Shown: positions 3,335-13,491 of the stretch, piece by piece
Layout: each line of letters begins with the position of its first letter
How positions within the stretch are numbered: the first letter of the stretch is position 1
NCBI GenBank assembly: GCA_016219235.1
Contig: JACRBO010000005.1
Location: 1 to 16,588, forward strand
Direction of reading: 5' to 3'
Origin: Chloroflexota bacterium
Lineage (GTDB): Bacteria; Chloroflexota; Anaerolineae; Fen-1058
Length of the DNA stretch: 16,588 bases
Translations under genes and position numbers: made by a program
The notes under the pieces: generated by a model
What the model was told of the DNA's origin: nothing
Databases searched by the model: none
Seen by the model: the letters and a program-made list of their open reading frames with translations, nothing else

Positions 3335-3502
3335 AAGCGCTATCAGAATCGATCGCTGGAAACGGCGCAGGTCATCAACGAACTGATCGATCTGGCGAAG
3401 CAGATGAAGGCGGCCCATCAACGCGGCGAAGACCTCGGCCTCAGCGAAGAAGAACTCGCCTTCTACGATGCGCTCGAAGTGAACGACAGCGCGGTGCAGG
3501 TC
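3335..3502 (+). pseudogene. hsdR: Type I restriction HsdR C-terminal fragment
   Basis: About 55 residues ([18 protein letters not shown] through [19 protein letters not shown]) match the C-terminal region of type I restriction endonuclease subunit R, whose hallmark is the block [12 protein letters not shown]. The rest of HsdR (nuclease, helicase motor, roughly 1000 residues) is absent. The frame is open only from 3311 and has no start signal. The fragment runs without a frameshift into an acyl-CoA dehydrogenase tail, so it is a relic at a recombination junction, not a working gene. Family recognition is from remembered motifs. Confidence 0.7.
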
Positions 3503-3631
3503 TTTGGCGGCTACGGCTTCATGAAAGAATATCCTGTAGAGAAGTTGATGCGCGATGTGAAGGTCTTCCAGATCTACGAAGGCACGTCGCAGGTGCAGCG
3601 CACCGTCATCATGCGGGAGTTGTTTAAGTAA
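3490..3631 (+). pseudogene. Acyl-CoA dehydrogenase C-terminal fragment fused to hsdR relic
   Basis: The last 46 residues of this frame (from [20 protein letters not shown] to [20 protein letters not shown]) are the textbook C-terminus of a short/medium-chain acyl-CoA dehydrogenase. They include the FAD/tetramer segment QVFGGYG and the YEGTSQxQR block, whose Glu is the catalytic base in several family members. The first 330 or so residues of the enzyme are missing. The joint with the HsdR fragment lies around 3490-3506, where both parent proteins have a similar SAVQV/DAVQV stretch; this suggests recombination at short homology. It ends at TAA 3629-3631. Confidence 0.8.
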
Positions 3632-7752: not shown

Positions 7753-9021
7753 ATGCACAGCAAGAAGATGTGGCTGATCGGGGTGCTGGCCCTGATCGCG
7801 CTGCTGGCCTTAGCCGCGTGCTCCGCCCAGCCCGGACCGGCCGGCCCGGCCGGAGCGCAAGGCCCCAAAGGCGACCCCGGCCCCGCTGGCCCCGCTGGTA
7901 AAGACGGCCAGAATGGTAAAGATGCGTCGGTGGCCGACCTGAAAATCGGCTCGGAGTATGTCGGCAGCGCAGCCTGCAGCGCGTGCCATCAGAAGACCTA
8001 TGACACCTTTATGAAGTCCGGTCACCCGTGGAAGTTGAACAAGGTGGTGGATGGCAAAGCGCCCGACTATCCGTTCACGTCGATCCCCAACCCGCCCGAA
8101 GGCTACACGTGGAATGACATCAGTTACGTCATCGGCGGTTATAACTGGAAGGCGCGCTTCATGGACAAGGACGGCTTCATCATCACCGACAAGCCGGGCG
8201 CGACCGTCAGTGACACCAATTACGTGAACCAGTACAACTTTGCCAATGCCGTGGTTGGCAAAGACGCGGGTTGGGTTAAGTACAACTCGGGCCGCGTGCA
8301 GATGAAGTATGACTGCGGCACGTGCCACACCACCGGCTATTCCAATTTCCCGGCGGATAAGCATCAAGACGGCCTGCCCGGCATCGTGGGCACCTGGGCC
8401 GAACCTGGCATCCAGTGCGAAGCCTGCCACGGCCCCGGCAGCCAGCACGTGAAAGATCCGACGGGCGTCCAGTTGGAAGTAACGCAGAGTTCCACACTGT
8501 GCGGCAAGTGCCACCGCCGCGATGCGGTGGAAGCCGTCAATGCGAAAGCCGGCTTCATCGAGCACCACGAGCAATATGAAGAGCTGTTCCAGAGTAAGCA
8601 CATCACCATCGACTGCGTCATCTGCCACGATCCACACACCGGTGTGGTGCAGCTGCGCCAGGCGCAGAAGGACGATGCCAAAGTCAAGACCACGCGCACG
8701 ACGTGTGTGAACTGTCACTTCAAAGAAGGACAGAATCAGAAGAACGCCGCCCATGCAACGTTTGACTGCGCCGAGTGCCACATGCCGCGCATCACCGCCA
8801 GCGCCTGGTCAGATGCCGCGAAGTTTACGGGCGACATCCGCACGCACCTGATGGCGATCGATCCGAATCAGTTTGGTCAGTTCAGCGAAGACGGCAAGAC
8901 GGCCCTGTCGCAGTTGGGGCTGGACTTCGCCTGCCGCCACTGCCACGTGCCCGACGGCCCGTTAGCTAAAACCGACGATCAACTCAAGGCGATAGCGAAC
9001 GGTTATCACACCGCCCGGTAA
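7753..9021 (+). CDS. Octahaem c-type lipoprotein cytochrome with collagen-like stalk
   Basis: Extracytoplasmic multihaem electron-transfer protein, 422 residues. ATG 7753 follows GGAGG at 7739-7743 with a 9-base gap and begins a lipoprotein signal ending LALAAC (C23); an in-frame start 12 codons upstream has no such support. Residues 28-57 are ten uninterrupted Gly-X-Y triplets (GPAGPAGAQGPKGDPG and on). The haem region starts with YVGSAACSACHQKTYDTFMKSGHPW, typical of the cytochrome c554 family. Eight CXXCH sites are visible: C75-H79, C188-H192, C222-H226, C250-H254, C288-H292, C318-H322, C339-H343 and C394-H398. The wide gap between haems 1 and 2 (about 110 residues) is shared by several c554-like proteins. 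No partner quinol or nitrogen-cycle enzyme is in the window, so the substrate is open. Hairpins lie on both sides, so it is probably transcribed alone. Confidence 0.92.
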   Translation: MHSKKMWLIGVLALIALLALAACSAQPGPAGPAGAQGPKGDPGPAGPAGKDGQNGKDASVADLKIGSEYVGSAACSACHQKTYDTFMKSGHPWKLNKVVDGKAPDYPFTSIPNPPEGYTWNDISYVIGGYNWKARFMDKDGFIITDKPGATVSDTNYVNQYNFANAVVGKDAGWVKYNSGRVQMKYDCGTCHTTGYSNFPADKHQDGLPGIVGTWAEPGIQCEACHGPGSQHVKDPTGVQLEVTQSSTLCGKCHRRDAVEAVNAKAGFIEHHEQYEELFQSKHITIDCVICHDPHTGVVQLRQAQKDDAKVKTTRTTCVNCHFKEGQNQKNAAHATFDCAECHMPRITASAWSDAAKFTGDIRTHLMAIDPNQFGQFSEDGKTALSQLGLDFACRHCHVPDGPLAKTDDQLKAIANGYHTAR

Positions 9022-9044
9022 GCCAGCACGACAGCCAAAACACC

Positions 9045-9071
9045 ACGAGCCGAGGCGATCCCTCGGCTCGT
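9045..9071. terminator. Perfect 11-bp hairpin after the cytochrome gene
   Basis: ACGAGCCGAGG (9045-9055) pairs exactly with 9061-9071 around the loop CGATC, 24 bases after the cytochrome stop. It is preceded by AAAAC but not followed by a T-run. Position and strength suggest a transcript 3' end. Confidence 0.6.
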
Positions 9072-9111
9072 CGGTTGATCGGGGCGGCCTAATTATTTCG
9101 CCTGAGACATC

Positions 9112-9228
9112 AGCCAACCCGCCCACGATGAAACCCGCCCAACCCGCGCGCAGAAAGCCGATGTGGATCGCCATCTCGGTGGAGTTGGGGCCGGGGATGA
9201 GGTTGGTCGCGCCGAGCAAGTCGAGTTG
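9112..9228 (-). pseudogene. chrA: Chromate transporter (ChrA) N-terminal fragment
   Basis: The minus strand encodes about 38 residues ([20 protein letters not shown], then [17 protein letters not shown]) matching the conserved first-helix region of CHR-family transporters, whose signature is IPGPNSTE. After GGL the match stops and the frame runs into the hairpin downstream of the cytochrome gene. Upstream it stops at about 9228, exactly where the ynfA remnant begins on the other strand. A normal ChrA half is about 180-200 residues, so this is only a scrap. No start signal is present. Confidence 0.8.
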
Positions 9229-9459
9229 CTGGGGTTGATAGGCGGAGTCATTCTGATCCTGTACGGCATCATCCCGACGCTTCAGCCCGCCACGTTCAAT
9301 TTCGGGCGCGTGTATGCCGCTTACGGGGGAGTCTTCGTCGTGTTATCGCTGTTGTGAGGGTGGCAAATCGATCGCAAGACTCCAGATACATTCGACTTGC
9401 TCGGCGGCGTGATTTGCCTGATCGGTGTGGCGGTGATCATGTACTGGCCGCGCAGTTGA
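9226..9459 (+). pseudogene. ynfA: YnfA/UPF0060 membrane protein, truncated, with internal TGA
   Basis: The C-terminal two-thirds of a YnfA (UPF0060) small inner-membrane protein: [16 protein letters not shown], then [18 protein letters not shown], stop, [19 protein letters not shown] and [12 protein letters not shown], ending at TGA 9457-9459. The first 35-40 residues are missing and replaced by the head-on chrA fragment. The in-frame TGA at 9355-9357 sits where family members usually read LLWGW, so a TGG Trp codon has probably become TGA. Truncation plus the stop make it a pseudogene. Confidence 0.82.
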
Positions 9460-9695: not shown

Positions 9696-10058
9696 TCAGA
9701 ACACCAGCACCTGATCAGCTGCGATCGTCCACTCGCCCAGCAAATCCATGTTGCCGGGTTGCACCCCTTCAAAGAAGCGTTCTGGCTCGAGCCCGCGAGC
9801 CTGGGAGCACGTGCCTCAGGTGGCGACTTCGCCGCGCCGCGCGATGGATTGCAGCATCCGCTCGACGTTGTAGTAACCGTCGGGTGTTTTCTGCCCGCGC
9901 ACGGCGCAGTTCACGCCGTCGCCCATCAGAAACACACGCACGCTGGCTTCCGGTCGTTTGACCAGATTTAACGCCAGGCGCAGCGCATTGTACGGACGCT
10001 CGTTGCCATAGGGCGCGTCGTTCACGATCAACAAATAGTTCTTCGGATTGGCAGCCAT
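9696..10058 (-). CDS. DsrE-family sulfur-relay protein with in-frame UGA; candidate selenoprotein
   Basis: Small cytoplasmic DsrE/DsrF-like protein; relatives carry or reduce sulfane sulfur on conserved Cys. ATG 10058 is supported by GAGGAG five bases upstream; a start at 10109 would overlap the MFS stop and has no such site. The full frame is 120 residues plus stop, normal for the family. It begins with KNYLLIVNDAPYGNERPYNA, has C51 in MGDGVNCAVRGQKTPDGYYN, then VERMLQSIARRGEVAT. Codon 81 is TGA (9816-9818), then GTCSQARGL and a regular C-terminus GNMDLLGEWTIAADQVLVF ending at TGA 9696-9698. Homologues read CGTC or CGSC here, so the UGA replaces the first Cys, giving UGTC with C84. By the standard code the gene would stop after 80 residues at 9816. 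It is the last gene of the sulfur operon, 47 bases after the MFS gene. The alternative is a nonsense mutation in a decaying gene. Confidence 0.7.
9784..9801 (-). promoter_or_regulatory. Candidate bacterial SECIS hairpin
   Basis: On the minus strand, starting 14 bases after the UGA, GGCUCG pairs with CGAGCC around the 6-base loop CGGGCU. The G at loop position 2 lies 22 bases after the UGA. Known bacterial SECIS elements have a short stem-loop in about this range with a G in the first two loop positions. In GC-rich coding DNA such hairpins also arise by chance, and the stem is only six pairs. Confidence 0.35.
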
Positions 10059-10105: not shown

Positions 10106-11365
10106 TCATATTGTCTGATGTGCGATTCGCGTCTCATACATCACGCTTGCCACAATCACCCCCGATAGAAAAGTCAGTCCCCCGACGATGGCAATCGCGA
10201 TCGGGATGTTGAAGGCATCCGCTAACAGGCCCGCCAGGATCGCGCCGATCGCGTAACCGCCATCACGCCACAGACGATACACACCCACTGCCGAAGCGCG
10301 CCAATCCGGATGGGCCACATCGCCGATGGCGGCCAACAGCGTTGGATACACCAGGGCCGTGCCCAGGCCCAGCAGCACAGCGCCGCCCAACCACGGCCCA
10401 AAGCCCTGCCCGATCACGAACGCCCCGATCCCGACGGCCTGCACCCACATGCCAGACGCGATCAACCACTTGCGGCCCCAGCGATCGCTCAACGCGCCGG
10501 TGAACAACTGCGCGATCCCCCACACGCCCGGATAGATTGCGGCGATGATGGCGACCTGACCGAGCGGCAAGCCACGCGCCGTGAGGTAGATCGGCAGCAG
10601 GCCCCAGACCAGCCCATCGTTCAGGTTATTGATCAGGCCGGCCTGGCTCACGGCGAACAAAGCACGATCGCGCCAACTGGTGATCAGCAGGACTTCAGCA
10701 AACGATCGATCATGCGCGGCATTAGTCTGAGCGGGCGCTGTGGCTGAAACTTGTTGCGCTTCGAGGCGCGCGTGGTGATGTGTCTCGTGCACAAAGACGC
10801 TCGACAGCAACAGGCCCAGCAGTGCAAAGACCACACCGGGCAGAAACGGAATCGGTCGCAACCCGTAGGTCGACGCCAGATAACCACTGAGCAGCGCCGA
10901 AAGTGACACGGCGATGTACCCGGCCGCTTCATTCAGGCCCATCGCCAGCCCGCGTCGCTGCGGCCCGGCCAAATCGATCTTCATGATCACCGTCGTCGAC
11001 CAACATAGACCCTGATTGATCCCCAGTAGCACATTCGCAAAGACGACCCAACCCCAACCGGGCGCGAACATGATCAGCAACGGGACCGGCAGACCCGCCA
11101 GCCAACCGGCGACGAGGATGCGTTTGCGTCCGATGCGATCGGACAGGCGACCAGCGAACAGGTTTGCCAGGGCCTTGACGATGCCGAAACTGACGAGGAA
11201 CGACAGCGCCGCCGCCTTTGAGGTCAAGCCGAAGTCTGTGCCGGCGATCAATGGAATGACCGTGCGCTCCAGGCCGACCATCGCCCCGACAAACGCATTG
11301 ATCACGACCAGCAGCGTGAACTGCCGCCAATTGGCGCGGAGCCCTAAAACAACCCGACTACTCAT
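10106..11365 (-). CDS. MFS transporter in sulfur operon
   Basis: Major facilitator superfamily carrier, 419 residues with about 12 hydrophobic helices. The MFS signature loop occurs in both halves: GRLSDRIGRKRIL between helices 2 and 3, and GALSDRWGRKWLI between 8 and 9. The central cytoplasmic loop carries a His cluster (HETHHHARLEAQQ), possibly metal-related. ATG 11365 overlaps the end of the preceding MBL-rhodanese gene by eight bases (stop TAG at 11358-11360), so translation is probably coupled. The substrate is not evident. By operon context it could export sulfite, thiosulfate or another product of persulfide oxidation, in the position that TauE/YeeE-type permeases occupy in cst operons; this is inference only. 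Confidence 0.88.
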   Translation of the reverse strand: MSSRVVLGLRANWRQFTLLVVINAFVGAMVGLERTVIPLIAGTDFGLTSKAAALSFLVSFGIVKALANLFAGRLSDRIGRKRILVAGWLAGLPVPLLIMFAPGWGWVVFANVLLGINQGLCWSTTVIMKIDLAGPQRRGLAMGLNEAAGYIAVSLSALLSGYLASTYGLRPIPFLPGVVFALLGLLLSSVFVHETHHHARLEAQQVSATAPAQTNAAHDRSFAEVLLITSWRDRALFAVSQAGLINNLNDGLVWGLLPIYLTARGLPLGQVAIIAAIYPGVWGIAQLFTGALSDRWGRKWLIASGMWVQAVGIGAFVIGQGFGPWLGGAVLLGLGTALVYPTLLAAIGDVAHPDWRASAVGVYRLWRDGGYAIGAILAGLLADAFNIPIAIAIVGGLTFLSGVIVASVMYETRIAHQTI

Positions 11366-12746
11366 CGGCCCGCACGATCGGATAGCCAGCGGTCTGCCAG
11401 CCGCTATAGCCGCCGTCCAGCAACATCAGGTCGCGATAGCCCCAGCGCTCCAACACCGAGAGGCCCACGGTCGATCGATCCGCGTGACCACAATGTACGA
11501 TGATGCGTTCATCTCGCGACACTGCTGGCGGAGACAATGGCAAACGGCCCGCATCGAGATGGATCGCGCGGGGCAGATGTCCGGCGCGCCATTCGTCGTC
11601 GTGACGCACATCCAGAATGATCGGTGCAGTACCGCGATCCAACTGCGAGCGAAGTTCTTCCGCCGGCATGATCGGCACGCGCTGCGTCGGCAGTTCCGCC
11701 GCTACCCAGGCCGCGAGGCCGCCGTCCAGATAGCCGCGCAGATCATCGTAGCCGATGCGAATCAACTGGCGCACGGCTTCTTCCCGCTCGATGGGATCAT
11801 CAGCGACCAGGATGATAGGTGTGCCGAAGGGCACGACCCAACCCGCCCACGTGATCAGCGGCGCGCCGAGCGGAATGCCGTACGATTCGGAAATGTGACC
11901 GGCCAGGAACTCGTACGCCGCGCGCGCATCGATCACGGCCACGCCGTGTGCCAAGTGTTGCTGTACCTGGTCGGGCGACAGTGCTGCCAGTTTAGGTAGC
12001 CCCATCAATACCTTCGGGCCGCGCTGATTGATCGCGCGCATGTAGCGAAAGTAGGTGGGATAATCCGGCAAATTGCGCACCGCTTGCGCGACAAACTCTT
12101 CTTCGGATGCGGCTTGAAGGAGCGCGTTCCAGCGTCGTTCGCGACCAATGGTGGTCGATCGTTCTGCGGAGACTGGCGCAGAACAAAACGAACCGGCGCC
12201 ATGCGTAGGATAGACCATCACTTCATCTGGTAACCGCAGCAGTTGGTCGTGCAGCGTGTGATACAGTTGCCGCGATAAGTGTTCAGTCAGATCAGGCCCT
12301 AACAGATCGGTGCGGGCCGCGCCGCCGACGATGAGCGCGCCGCCCGTGAAGATCGCCGCCGGGGTTAGTTGGCCGATCGGGGTAACGGTAAAACTGATAT
12401 GCTCAGGCGTGTGGCCCGGTGTCGCCAGCACCCCGATCGTCACATCGCCCAATGACAACGTCGCGCCAGCTGCAAGCGGCTGATGATCAAATTCCAGATG
12501 CGCCTCAGCGCTGGCCCCGATGCGGATGCCCCGCTGACTCAGCAACTCGCGCGCACCGGAGATGAAGTCATTGTGCAAGTGTGTGTCGAACGCATACGTA
12601 AGTCGCAGCCCCAGACCTTGTGCCACTTGAAGATAGCGATCCACATCGCGCTGCGGATCGATCACGGCGGCCAGCCCCGTCGCTTCGGAAGCGATTAGAT
12701 AGGACGAGTTGCCCAGGTCTTCATCGACGAATTGCTTGACAAACAT
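11358..12746 (-). CDS. CstB-like MBL-fold persulfide dioxygenase with two rhodanese domains
   Basis: Cytoplasmic sulfur enzyme of 462 residues with the order of Staphylococcus CstB: metallo-beta-lactamase-fold persulfide dioxygenase (1-240), inactive rhodanese (about 262-360), active rhodanese (about 365-462). ATG 12746 is chosen because GGGGAGG lies six bases upstream; an upstream in-frame start would overlap the ArsR gene. Metal-site residues: H56/H58/D60 in THLHNDFISGA, H112 in TPGHTPEH. The third ETHE1-type ligand motif TGD reads FTGGALIVGGAARTDL here, so the usual Asp is Gly136. The first rhodanese has no Cys in its loop (ILVADDPIERE); the second has C419 in VHCGHADRST. Expected role: oxidise low-molecular-weight persulfide to sulfite and transfer sulfane sulfur to make thiosulfate. 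It is the second gene of the operon, 41 bases after the repressor. Confidence 0.9.
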   Translation of the reverse strand: MFVKQFVDEDLGNSSYLIASEATGLAAVIDPQRDVDRYLQVAQGLGLRLTYAFDTHLHNDFISGARELLSQRGIRIGASAEAHLEFDHQPLAAGATLSLGDVTIGVLATPGHTPEHISFTVTPIGQLTPAAIFTGGALIVGGAARTDLLGPDLTEHLSRQLYHTLHDQLLRLPDEVMVYPTHGAGSFCSAPVSAERSTTIGRERRWNALLQAASEEEFVAQAVRNLPDYPTYFRYMRAINQRGPKVLMGLPKLAALSPDQVQQHLAHGVAVIDARAAYEFLAGHISESYGIPLGAPLITWAGWVVPFGTPIILVADDPIEREEAVRQLIRIGYDDLRGYLDGGLAAWVAAELPTQRVPIMPAEELRSQLDRGTAPIILDVRHDDEWRAGHLPRAIHLDAGRLPLSPPAVSRDERIIVHCGHADRSTVGLSVLERWGYRDLMLLDGGYSGWQTAGYPIVRADE

Positions 12747-12787
12747 GTTGCTCCTCCCCGTTTGCAATCTGTCCGTGAAATTGACGA

Positions 12788-13450
12788 TCAGTGTTCGAGT
12801 GTCAGCCCGGCCTGCTGCCATTCGGCCACGCCCTCCTCCAGTCGCGCCACTTTCCGCCCGGCTTCGGACAGCGCGGCCAGCGCATCATCGGCGATAACAC
12901 ACAGCGGCCCACGGCAGTACACGATCAGCGTTCGATTGCGCGGCAATTCATCCAGCCGCTGTTCGAGTTCGTCCAGCGGGATCGAGATCGCTTGCGGCAG
13001 ATGGCCGGCCTGATACTCCGCCTCGGGCCGCGCATCGATTAAGATAGCTTTGCCGGCGCGCAGTCGATCGCGCAGCTCTTCGATCGAGACCGTCTCGAAT
13101 TCGTGCCGCCGCCTGCGATAGGCGTCGAGCGCCTGATCCACTTCGGCAAGCTGCTGTTCGCCAACAGCGCGCAGTTCCAGCCACAAACGCATTACGGCAG
13201 GATCGGCTAATCGATAACGCTGATACAACCCGTCGCGTTCGGCGATGACCAATCGGGCCTGCTTGAGGCGCTGCAAGTGCTGAGACGCATTCGCTATCGT
13301 TAGATTGGCCTCGCGCGCCAACTCTTCGACCGTGCGCGGCGCTTGTACCAGCAGATCGAGCAGTTCCAGGCGATGCGCGTTCGCCATCGCGCTGGCGATG
13401 CGGGTGAAGAGGCGATAGAGTCGTTCTTTGCGTTGTCGTTTGCTCGCCAC
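12788..13450 (-). CDS. ArsR-family repressor fused to a rhodanese domain
   Basis: Transcriptional regulator with a winged helix-turn-helix (about residues 10-95; RTVEELAREANLTIANASQH holds the recognition region) followed by a linker helix and a rhodanese domain (about 120-220). The rhodanese loop is CRGPLC with C179 and C184. These are the only Cys in the protein: the DNA-binding half lacks the two Cys that sense persulfide in BigR/SqrR, so sensing by the rhodanese loop is likely (inference). GTG 13450 is chosen because the alternative TTG at 13474 lies inside the operator and almost at the predicted transcription start; GGATGG precedes the GTG. It is first in the operon and presumably represses it, including itself. 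The domain fusion is known in Chloroflexota and other bacteria. Confidence 0.88.
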   Translation of the reverse strand: MASKRQRKERLYRLFTRIASAMANAHRLELLDLLVQAPRTVEELAREANLTIANASQHLQRLKQARLVIAERDGLYQRYRLADPAVMRLWLELRAVGEQQLAEVDQALDAYRRRRHEFETVSIEELRDRLRAGKAILIDARPEAEYQAGHLPQAISIPLDELEQRLDELPRNRTLIVYCRGPLCVIADDALAALSEAGRKVARLEEGVAEWQQAGLTLEH

Positions 13451-13465
13451 CGGATGCCCATCCAA

Positions 13466-13491
13466 ACTATTCAAGAGATTTATTGAATAGT
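13466..13491. promoter_or_regulatory. Operator-like inverted repeat of the sulfur operon
   Basis: ACTATTCAA (13466-13474) and TTGAATAGT (13483-13491) form a perfect 9-bp inverted repeat with an 8-base spacer. It is AT-rich in GC-rich surroundings and overlaps the -10 region and predicted start of the minus-strand promoter. It is in the right place and of the right size for an ArsR dimer, indicating autorepression. Confidence 0.7.

Follow-up and report, generated by a model that had tools for sequence, protein, structure and literature searches.

The dsrE locus

The window, which is the whole stretch of DNA that was analysed (16,588 nucleotides), contains a run of four genes on the same strand: an ArsR-rhodanese gene, an MBL-rhodanese gene, an MFS gene and, last, dsrE. 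The features of this run are as follows.

12788 to 13474, minus strand: ArsR/SmtB regulator fused to rhodanese, first gene of the run (Pfam HTH_5, Rhodanese)
11358 to 12821, minus strand: metallo-beta-lactamase (MBL) fold with two rhodanese stretches (Pfam Lactamase_B, Rhodanese; the start is that of the mechanical ORF)
10106 to 11365, minus strand: MFS transporter, upstream of dsrE in the run (Pfam MFS_1, 167.1 bits)
9696 to 10058, minus strand: dsrE with a predicted Sec-UGA, 120-residue DsrE/YchN-like protein, motif U81-G-T-C84 (from the frame, Pfam and relatives)
9816 to 9818, minus strand: in-frame UGA, codon 81, predicted to be read as selenocysteine (TGA in 63 and Cys in 17 of the best 80 relatives)
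9784 to 9801, minus strand: putative bSECIS hairpin, 5' arm GGCUCG (9801-9796), loop CGGGCU (9795-9790) and 3' arm CGAGCC (9789-9784)

The first three genes of the run overlap in the mechanical gene calls. The ArsR-rhodanese protein scores 64.3 bits against the NCBIfam model HTH_metalloreg (cut-off 55), and we infer that the MBL-rhodanese gene is persulfide-dioxygenase-like.

The dsrE frame starts at an ATG (10058-10056) preceded by the purine-rich GAGGAGAG and contains one internal TGA (9818-9816), downstream of which it reads GTCSQARGLEPE and onwards up to the terminal TGA (9698-9696). The read-through protein matches Pfam DsrE (PF02635) with 69.3 bits (cut-off 22.7), residues 6-120 covering the whole profile (1-116 of 116); the original prediction, that reading through from ATG 10058 yields a complete 120-residue DsrE protein, is thus borne out. 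None of the NCBIfam models that it matches reaches its cut-off, and the scores against the TusD equivalogs are far below (TIGR03012, 34.3 versus 89.25; NF001237, 31.2 versus 92). The best solved relative by sequence is YchN of E. coli (PDB 1jx7; E 1.7e-22, residues 8-120), whose CKTC motif aligns with UGTC; its first Cys falls at U81, so Cys replaces Sec there. A. vinosum DsrE (2hy5_A) is a weak match (E 0.0036, residues 8-93) and has Cys at position 81, with neither Sec nor the second Cys of the motif.

Across the window there are 37 places, the dsrE site included, where an in-frame TGA has an open frame on both sides. Rfam at gathering thresholds gave no match and ARAGORN no tRNA in the whole window. 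At 8962-9357 the minus strand has a piece resembling a chromate transporter (26.2 bits, Pfam cut-off 28.6), and overlapping it on the other strand is a YnfA/UPF0060 piece; both are probably decayed genes. A C-terminal fragment of an acyl-CoA dehydrogenase lies at 3404-3631, and transposase- and integrase-like reading frames were seen by eye at the left end.

Codon 81 in relatives

A search of 5.8 billion proteins gave 2984 matches to the read-through product. Among the best 120 of these, 75 are short predictions whose last residue is the one preceding the UGA (80 aa long in 70 of the 75), 44 are full-length and one is of another kind. W stands at the codon-81 site in six of the 44 full-length proteins, most simply because a gene caller with TGA=Trp produced them.

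A scan of GTDB genomes gave 525 confirmed relatives, and the best 80 were kept for codon reading. Codon 81 is TGA in 63 of them and a Cys codon (TGC or TGT) in 17, a ratio that cannot be extended to the family at large, since these are the top-ranking 80 of the 525. TAA or TAG was found at this codon in none of the 80. In the UGA loci the frame past the TGA runs to the usual C-terminus. The frame and the alignment therefore bear out the claim that UGA stands in place of the first Cys of CGTC, and the reading of codon 81 across DsrE homologues, which had been proposed as a check, favours selenocysteine.

Most of the 63 UGA loci are labelled as Chloroflexota MAGs (Anaerolineae, Caldilineales and others). 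Three (L030, L034 and L054) are labelled Desulfobacteraceae, Firmicutes or Pseudomonadota, which may reflect transfer or misbinning. One UGA copy (L057) has an extra in-frame stop near its C-terminus, either through decay or through assembly error. Four genomes hold two UGA copies each (L007/L020, L014/L022, L015/L018 and L039/L051), which suggests paralogues with separate roles. Searches of plasmids for dsrE gave four records at the DNA level and 36 at the protein level, none of the 36 reaching 60% identity.

Of 201 genomes drawn from the phylum, 13 contained a dsrE relative at E <= 1e-20. One internal TGA was found in four of the 13 (five copies) and none in the other nine, where all six of the sites that were read carry Cys.

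Selection after the UGA and Sec/Cys exchange

Median dN/dS is 0.18 after the UGA (over the 434 of the 524 pairs in which it is finite) and 0.088 before it. These figures hold to an order of magnitude because dS is near saturation and because the pairs were chosen to share at least 75% identity upstream of the UGA, to the advantage of the upstream segment. In the 524 pairs identity averages 79% before the UGA and 65% after it. These sequence comparisons indicate that the segment after the UGA is under purifying selection, in agreement with the view that it is a normal DsrE C-terminus; the decay of this segment in relatives that had been named as evidence against selenocysteine is absent.

The original prediction held plain nonsense to be a real alternative, namely that a Cys-type dsrE acquired its stop by mutation or through a sequencing error and that the C-terminus is a relic. 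The fragment-like acyl-CoA dehydrogenase, chromate transporter and YnfA pieces near dsrE would suit such a history. Against it stand the same TGA codon in 63 of the best 80 relatives, the purifying selection on the segment after it and the conserved hairpin described below; sequencing error is no live explanation because many different genomes have the UGA. We reject this alternative and regard its probability as very low.

A tree of 125 rows (64 U, 53 Cys, six W, one L and one R), built with the codon-81 site masked, implies at least ten Sec/Cys exchanges, a rough count because the tree has poor resolution, with 58 of its 120 inner branches left open. By tree path the rows nearest to the window gene are L001 and L004.

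A hairpin downstream of the UGA

The window hairpin has 6 bp, its loop starts 20 nt past the UGA and its energy is -8.7 kcal/mol. We aligned, without gaps, the 48 bases from the UGA in 64 UGA genes including that of the window. RNAalifold and a count of named structures concur on one 6-bp helix that joins columns 18-23 with 30-35.

Five measures of this helix were compared with 500 shuffles in the 64 genes, and three lie above all 500: pairing (95.1% of 384 cells versus 89.2%), double-changed cells (33 versus 13.3) and the covariation score (0.279 versus 0.176). The other two show no excess, namely the number of pairs with a double change (3 versus 2.1; 73 of 500 shuffles reach it) and of further pair types (8 versus 7.4; 165 of 500). 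Sliding the partner arm by 1-3 columns lowers pairing to 7.8-56.3%.

The strongest covariation is confined to one pair, 21-32, and one more, 18-35, contributes. In pair 21-32 the third base of the Ala87 codon, which is silent, faces the middle base of codon 91 (Glu or Gly); this pair is C-G in 38 of the 64 genes, U-A in 21, U-G in three and broken in two (Fisher p 1.1e-11, uncorrected for kinship). The silent base of Ala87 thus predicts Glu or Gly at residue 91 in 59 of 64 genes (21 U-A and 38 C-G). Codon choice from codon 87 to codon 91 is nearly frozen across the 64 genes: of the 46 genes with Leu at residue 90, 45 use CTC, and 62 of the 64 encode Gly89 by GGG or GGT.

Synonymous-codon shuffles of the 64 genes form 3.41 of the 6 pairs, against 5.70 in the genes themselves. 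The 17 Cys genes have no helix and no excess of pairs over the same shuffles (2.24 observed versus 2.04). Taken individually, only 33 of the 64 UGA genes have a hairpin stabler at the 5% level than their own synonymous shuffles. There are two main forms: a loop CGGGNU on a GCUCG/CGAGC or GCCCG/CGGGC stem, and a loop AGGUCU, found in 20 of the 64 genes, which we take to match the SECIS loop of E. coli fdhF.

The bSECIS constraints as printed in PMC13188914 are a loop of 3-9 nt, a stem of 4-16 bp, a G in the first two loop positions, a UGA-to-loop distance of 16-37 nt and an MFE of <= -7.5. With perfect stems only, 53 of the 64 UGA genes lie within these limits, and none of the 17 Cys genes does. 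The window gene is among the 53, so a bSECIS search near codon 81, suggested earlier, comes out positive under the printed constraints, applied here in place of the bSECISearch program. Among the 11 UGA genes outside the limits, eight form an insufficiently stable stem at the same position, and three have a mismatch or broken stem (L001, the nearest relative, L042 and L062).

The UGA could also be a programmed stop, with the 80-residue protein as the main product and the hairpin tuning read-through. Sec insertion competes with termination in general, and gene callers predict the 80-residue form. The C-terminal 39 residues are, however, under purifying selection, and the 17 Cys relatives have the full-length frame only. 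We therefore give this explanation little credence, a shade more than plain nonsense.

Selenocysteine machinery

We searched for sel genes in 50 hand-picked genomes, 38 holding UGA loci (of the 63) and 12 holding Cys loci (of the 17). In the UGA genomes a tRNA-Sec above 60 bits was found in 31, SelA over its cut-off in 34, SelB over its cut-off in 32 and SelD over its cut-off, with one in-frame TGA, in 35; in the Cys genomes the counts for the first three were five, four and five, and SelD passed its cut-off in nine, with a TGA in four of them. The UGA within SelD is itself a second sign of a predicted selenoprotein. All four components are present in 25 of the 38 UGA genomes and at least one in all 38. 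Most genomes also have weaker tRNA matches, of at most 51 bits; a few of these exceed the Rfam cut-off of 47, and they were left uncounted. The nearest relative (G001) has all four components, with a partial SelB match. One UGA genome shows SelD only (G013) and one SelA only (G022), shortfalls that are probably due to gaps in the MAGs. The sel-gene check proposed with the original prediction thus favours selenocysteine, the evidence coming from relatives.

Two further UGA genomes, from the draw of 201 (G068 and G162), have both SelA and tRNA-Sec; in G162 the UGA dsrE, selA and tRNA-Sec matches share a contig that is at least 3.78 Mb long. SelA is also present in all nine drawn genomes without an internal dsrE stop and tRNA-Sec over the cut-off in eight of the nine, one of the eight being a noise-level match (48.9 bits). 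The Sec machinery thus permits Sec at this codon but does not dictate it.

The tRNAs bear on a further alternative, that UGA is read as Cys by a selC*-type tRNA-Cys with a UCA anticodon or as Trp by a code-4-like reassignment. tRNA-Cys of this type with UCA anticodons exist and are marked by U73 (PMC7609411, in the part consulted), and a Trp reading could draw on the six W among the 44 full-length proteins in the best 120 of 2984 matches. We inspected 30 tRNAs, 25 of them from UGA genomes; G73 is present in all 30 and UCA in 29, and the 25 all combine UCA with the serine-type G73, which argues against Cys. The frequency of SelA and SelB in the UGA genomes also speaks against either decoding, the hairpin would be unnecessary for it, and TGA serves as the terminal stop in many of the same dsrE genes. 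We consider both decodings highly improbable.

The remaining tRNA is from a Cys genome (G046, labelled Aquabacterium sp., which also holds L072). This tRNA-Sec-like gene (L093:1497-1593, minus strand; 71.2 bits) has G73 and the anticodon GCA and is flanked by selA and selB matches on the same contig, so that G046 may insert Sec at Cys codons. A selC*-type tRNA-Cys with GCA is described in the consulted part of PMC7609411, but with U73.

Taken together, the conservation of the UGA, the co-varying hairpin, the purifying selection and the Sec machinery in relatives support the prediction of a UGTC selenoprotein. On this sequence evidence we are nearly certain that dsrE would encode a DsrE-family selenoprotein in which UGA 81 is decoded as Sec via SelB, Sec-tRNA(Sec) and the downstream hairpin.

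Gene neighbourhood

Homologues of the ArsR-rhodanese protein (at least 200 residues aligned) lie by eight of the 63 UGA loci and 13 of the 17 Cys loci, four of the 13 on the opposite strand. Homologues of the MBL-rhodanese and MFS proteins are both present by four UGA and seven Cys loci, and in the nearest relative (L001) an MFS homologue 78% identical to that of the window adjoins the UGA dsrE. The Cys proteins, several of which come from proteobacterial MAGs, thus share their neighbourhood with some of the Sec proteins.

Single-linkage clustering of neighbouring reading frames gave an ArsR-type cluster by 24 UGA and 12 Cys loci and a flavoprotein cluster by 19 UGA and two Cys loci, counts that, like those above, are lower bounds because many loci are cut by contig ends. 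One member of each cluster was scanned: the ArsR-type member has HTH_5, and the flavoprotein has Pyr_redox_2 and a borderline FCSD sulfide-dehydrogenase domain.

Proposed function and relation to known selenoproteins

DsrE/TusD proteins have a persulfide-carrying Cys. The operon partners, and the placing of Sec at the Cys position of YchN and DsrE, point to a role for the dsrE product in sulfane-sulfur transfer or persulfide handling. We propose that SelB and Sec-tRNA(Sec) would decode codon 81 as selenocysteine under the direction of the hairpin, which lies inside the coding sequence past the UGA. The Sec81-x-x-Cys84 pair would take over the work of the persulfide-carrying Cys; Sec81 would take up sulfane sulfur in a Se-S adduct, or make a selenenylsulfide with Cys84, and the sulfur would be handed on to the rhodanese and MBL partners. 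The ArsR-controlled operon would in this way handle sulfide or persulfide.

The original prediction described DsrE-like selenoproteins as already reported, correctly: the parts consulted of the cited papers describe two sequences from the Sargasso Sea (PF02635, UxxC; PMC1088965) and a family with one member, from Desulfovibrio vulgaris (PMC1794560). In the GOS data 19 sequences are listed as 'DsrE 2' and two as 'DsrE 1' (PMC2398784, consulted section), and the relevant passages of two reviews give WP_014524487.1 as an example. As far as these sources describe them, the printed proteins have in common with the window dsrE the Pfam family, UxxC, the in-frame UGA and a predicted downstream bSECIS. 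For Chloroflexi, Sec decoding is named as a trait (PMC5322559) and three selenoproteins of three families are counted (PMC1794560) in the portions consulted. The open-licence papers found, in the parts consulted, name no DsrE selenoprotein in Chloroflexota. A selenoprotein form of sulfide quinone reductase is listed in the consulted part of a 2026 review, so selenium in a sulfide pathway is not unheard of.

The sequence data thus make a well-supported case for an apparently new lineage of DsrE-like UxxC selenoproteins, a type in print since 2005. In the window the gene stands in an operon with ArsR-rhodanese, MBL-rhodanese and MFS genes. More tentatively, and with the balance of probability somewhat against it, this clade of single-domain DsrE selenoproteins may be widespread in Anaerolineae and related Chloroflexota, swap Sec and Cys repeatedly and relay sulfane sulfur between a sulfide-oxidising flavoprotein, rhodanese and MBL enzymes, which would make it a selenium-based carrier.

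Automatic pipelines truncate these proteins after residue 80 or translate the UGA as Trp, and a lineage of redox proteins is therefore hidden in the databases. The set offers a natural comparison of Sec with Cys in one active site and one gene neighbourhood, through which one can test directly why bacteria bear the cost of selenium when they handle sulfur.
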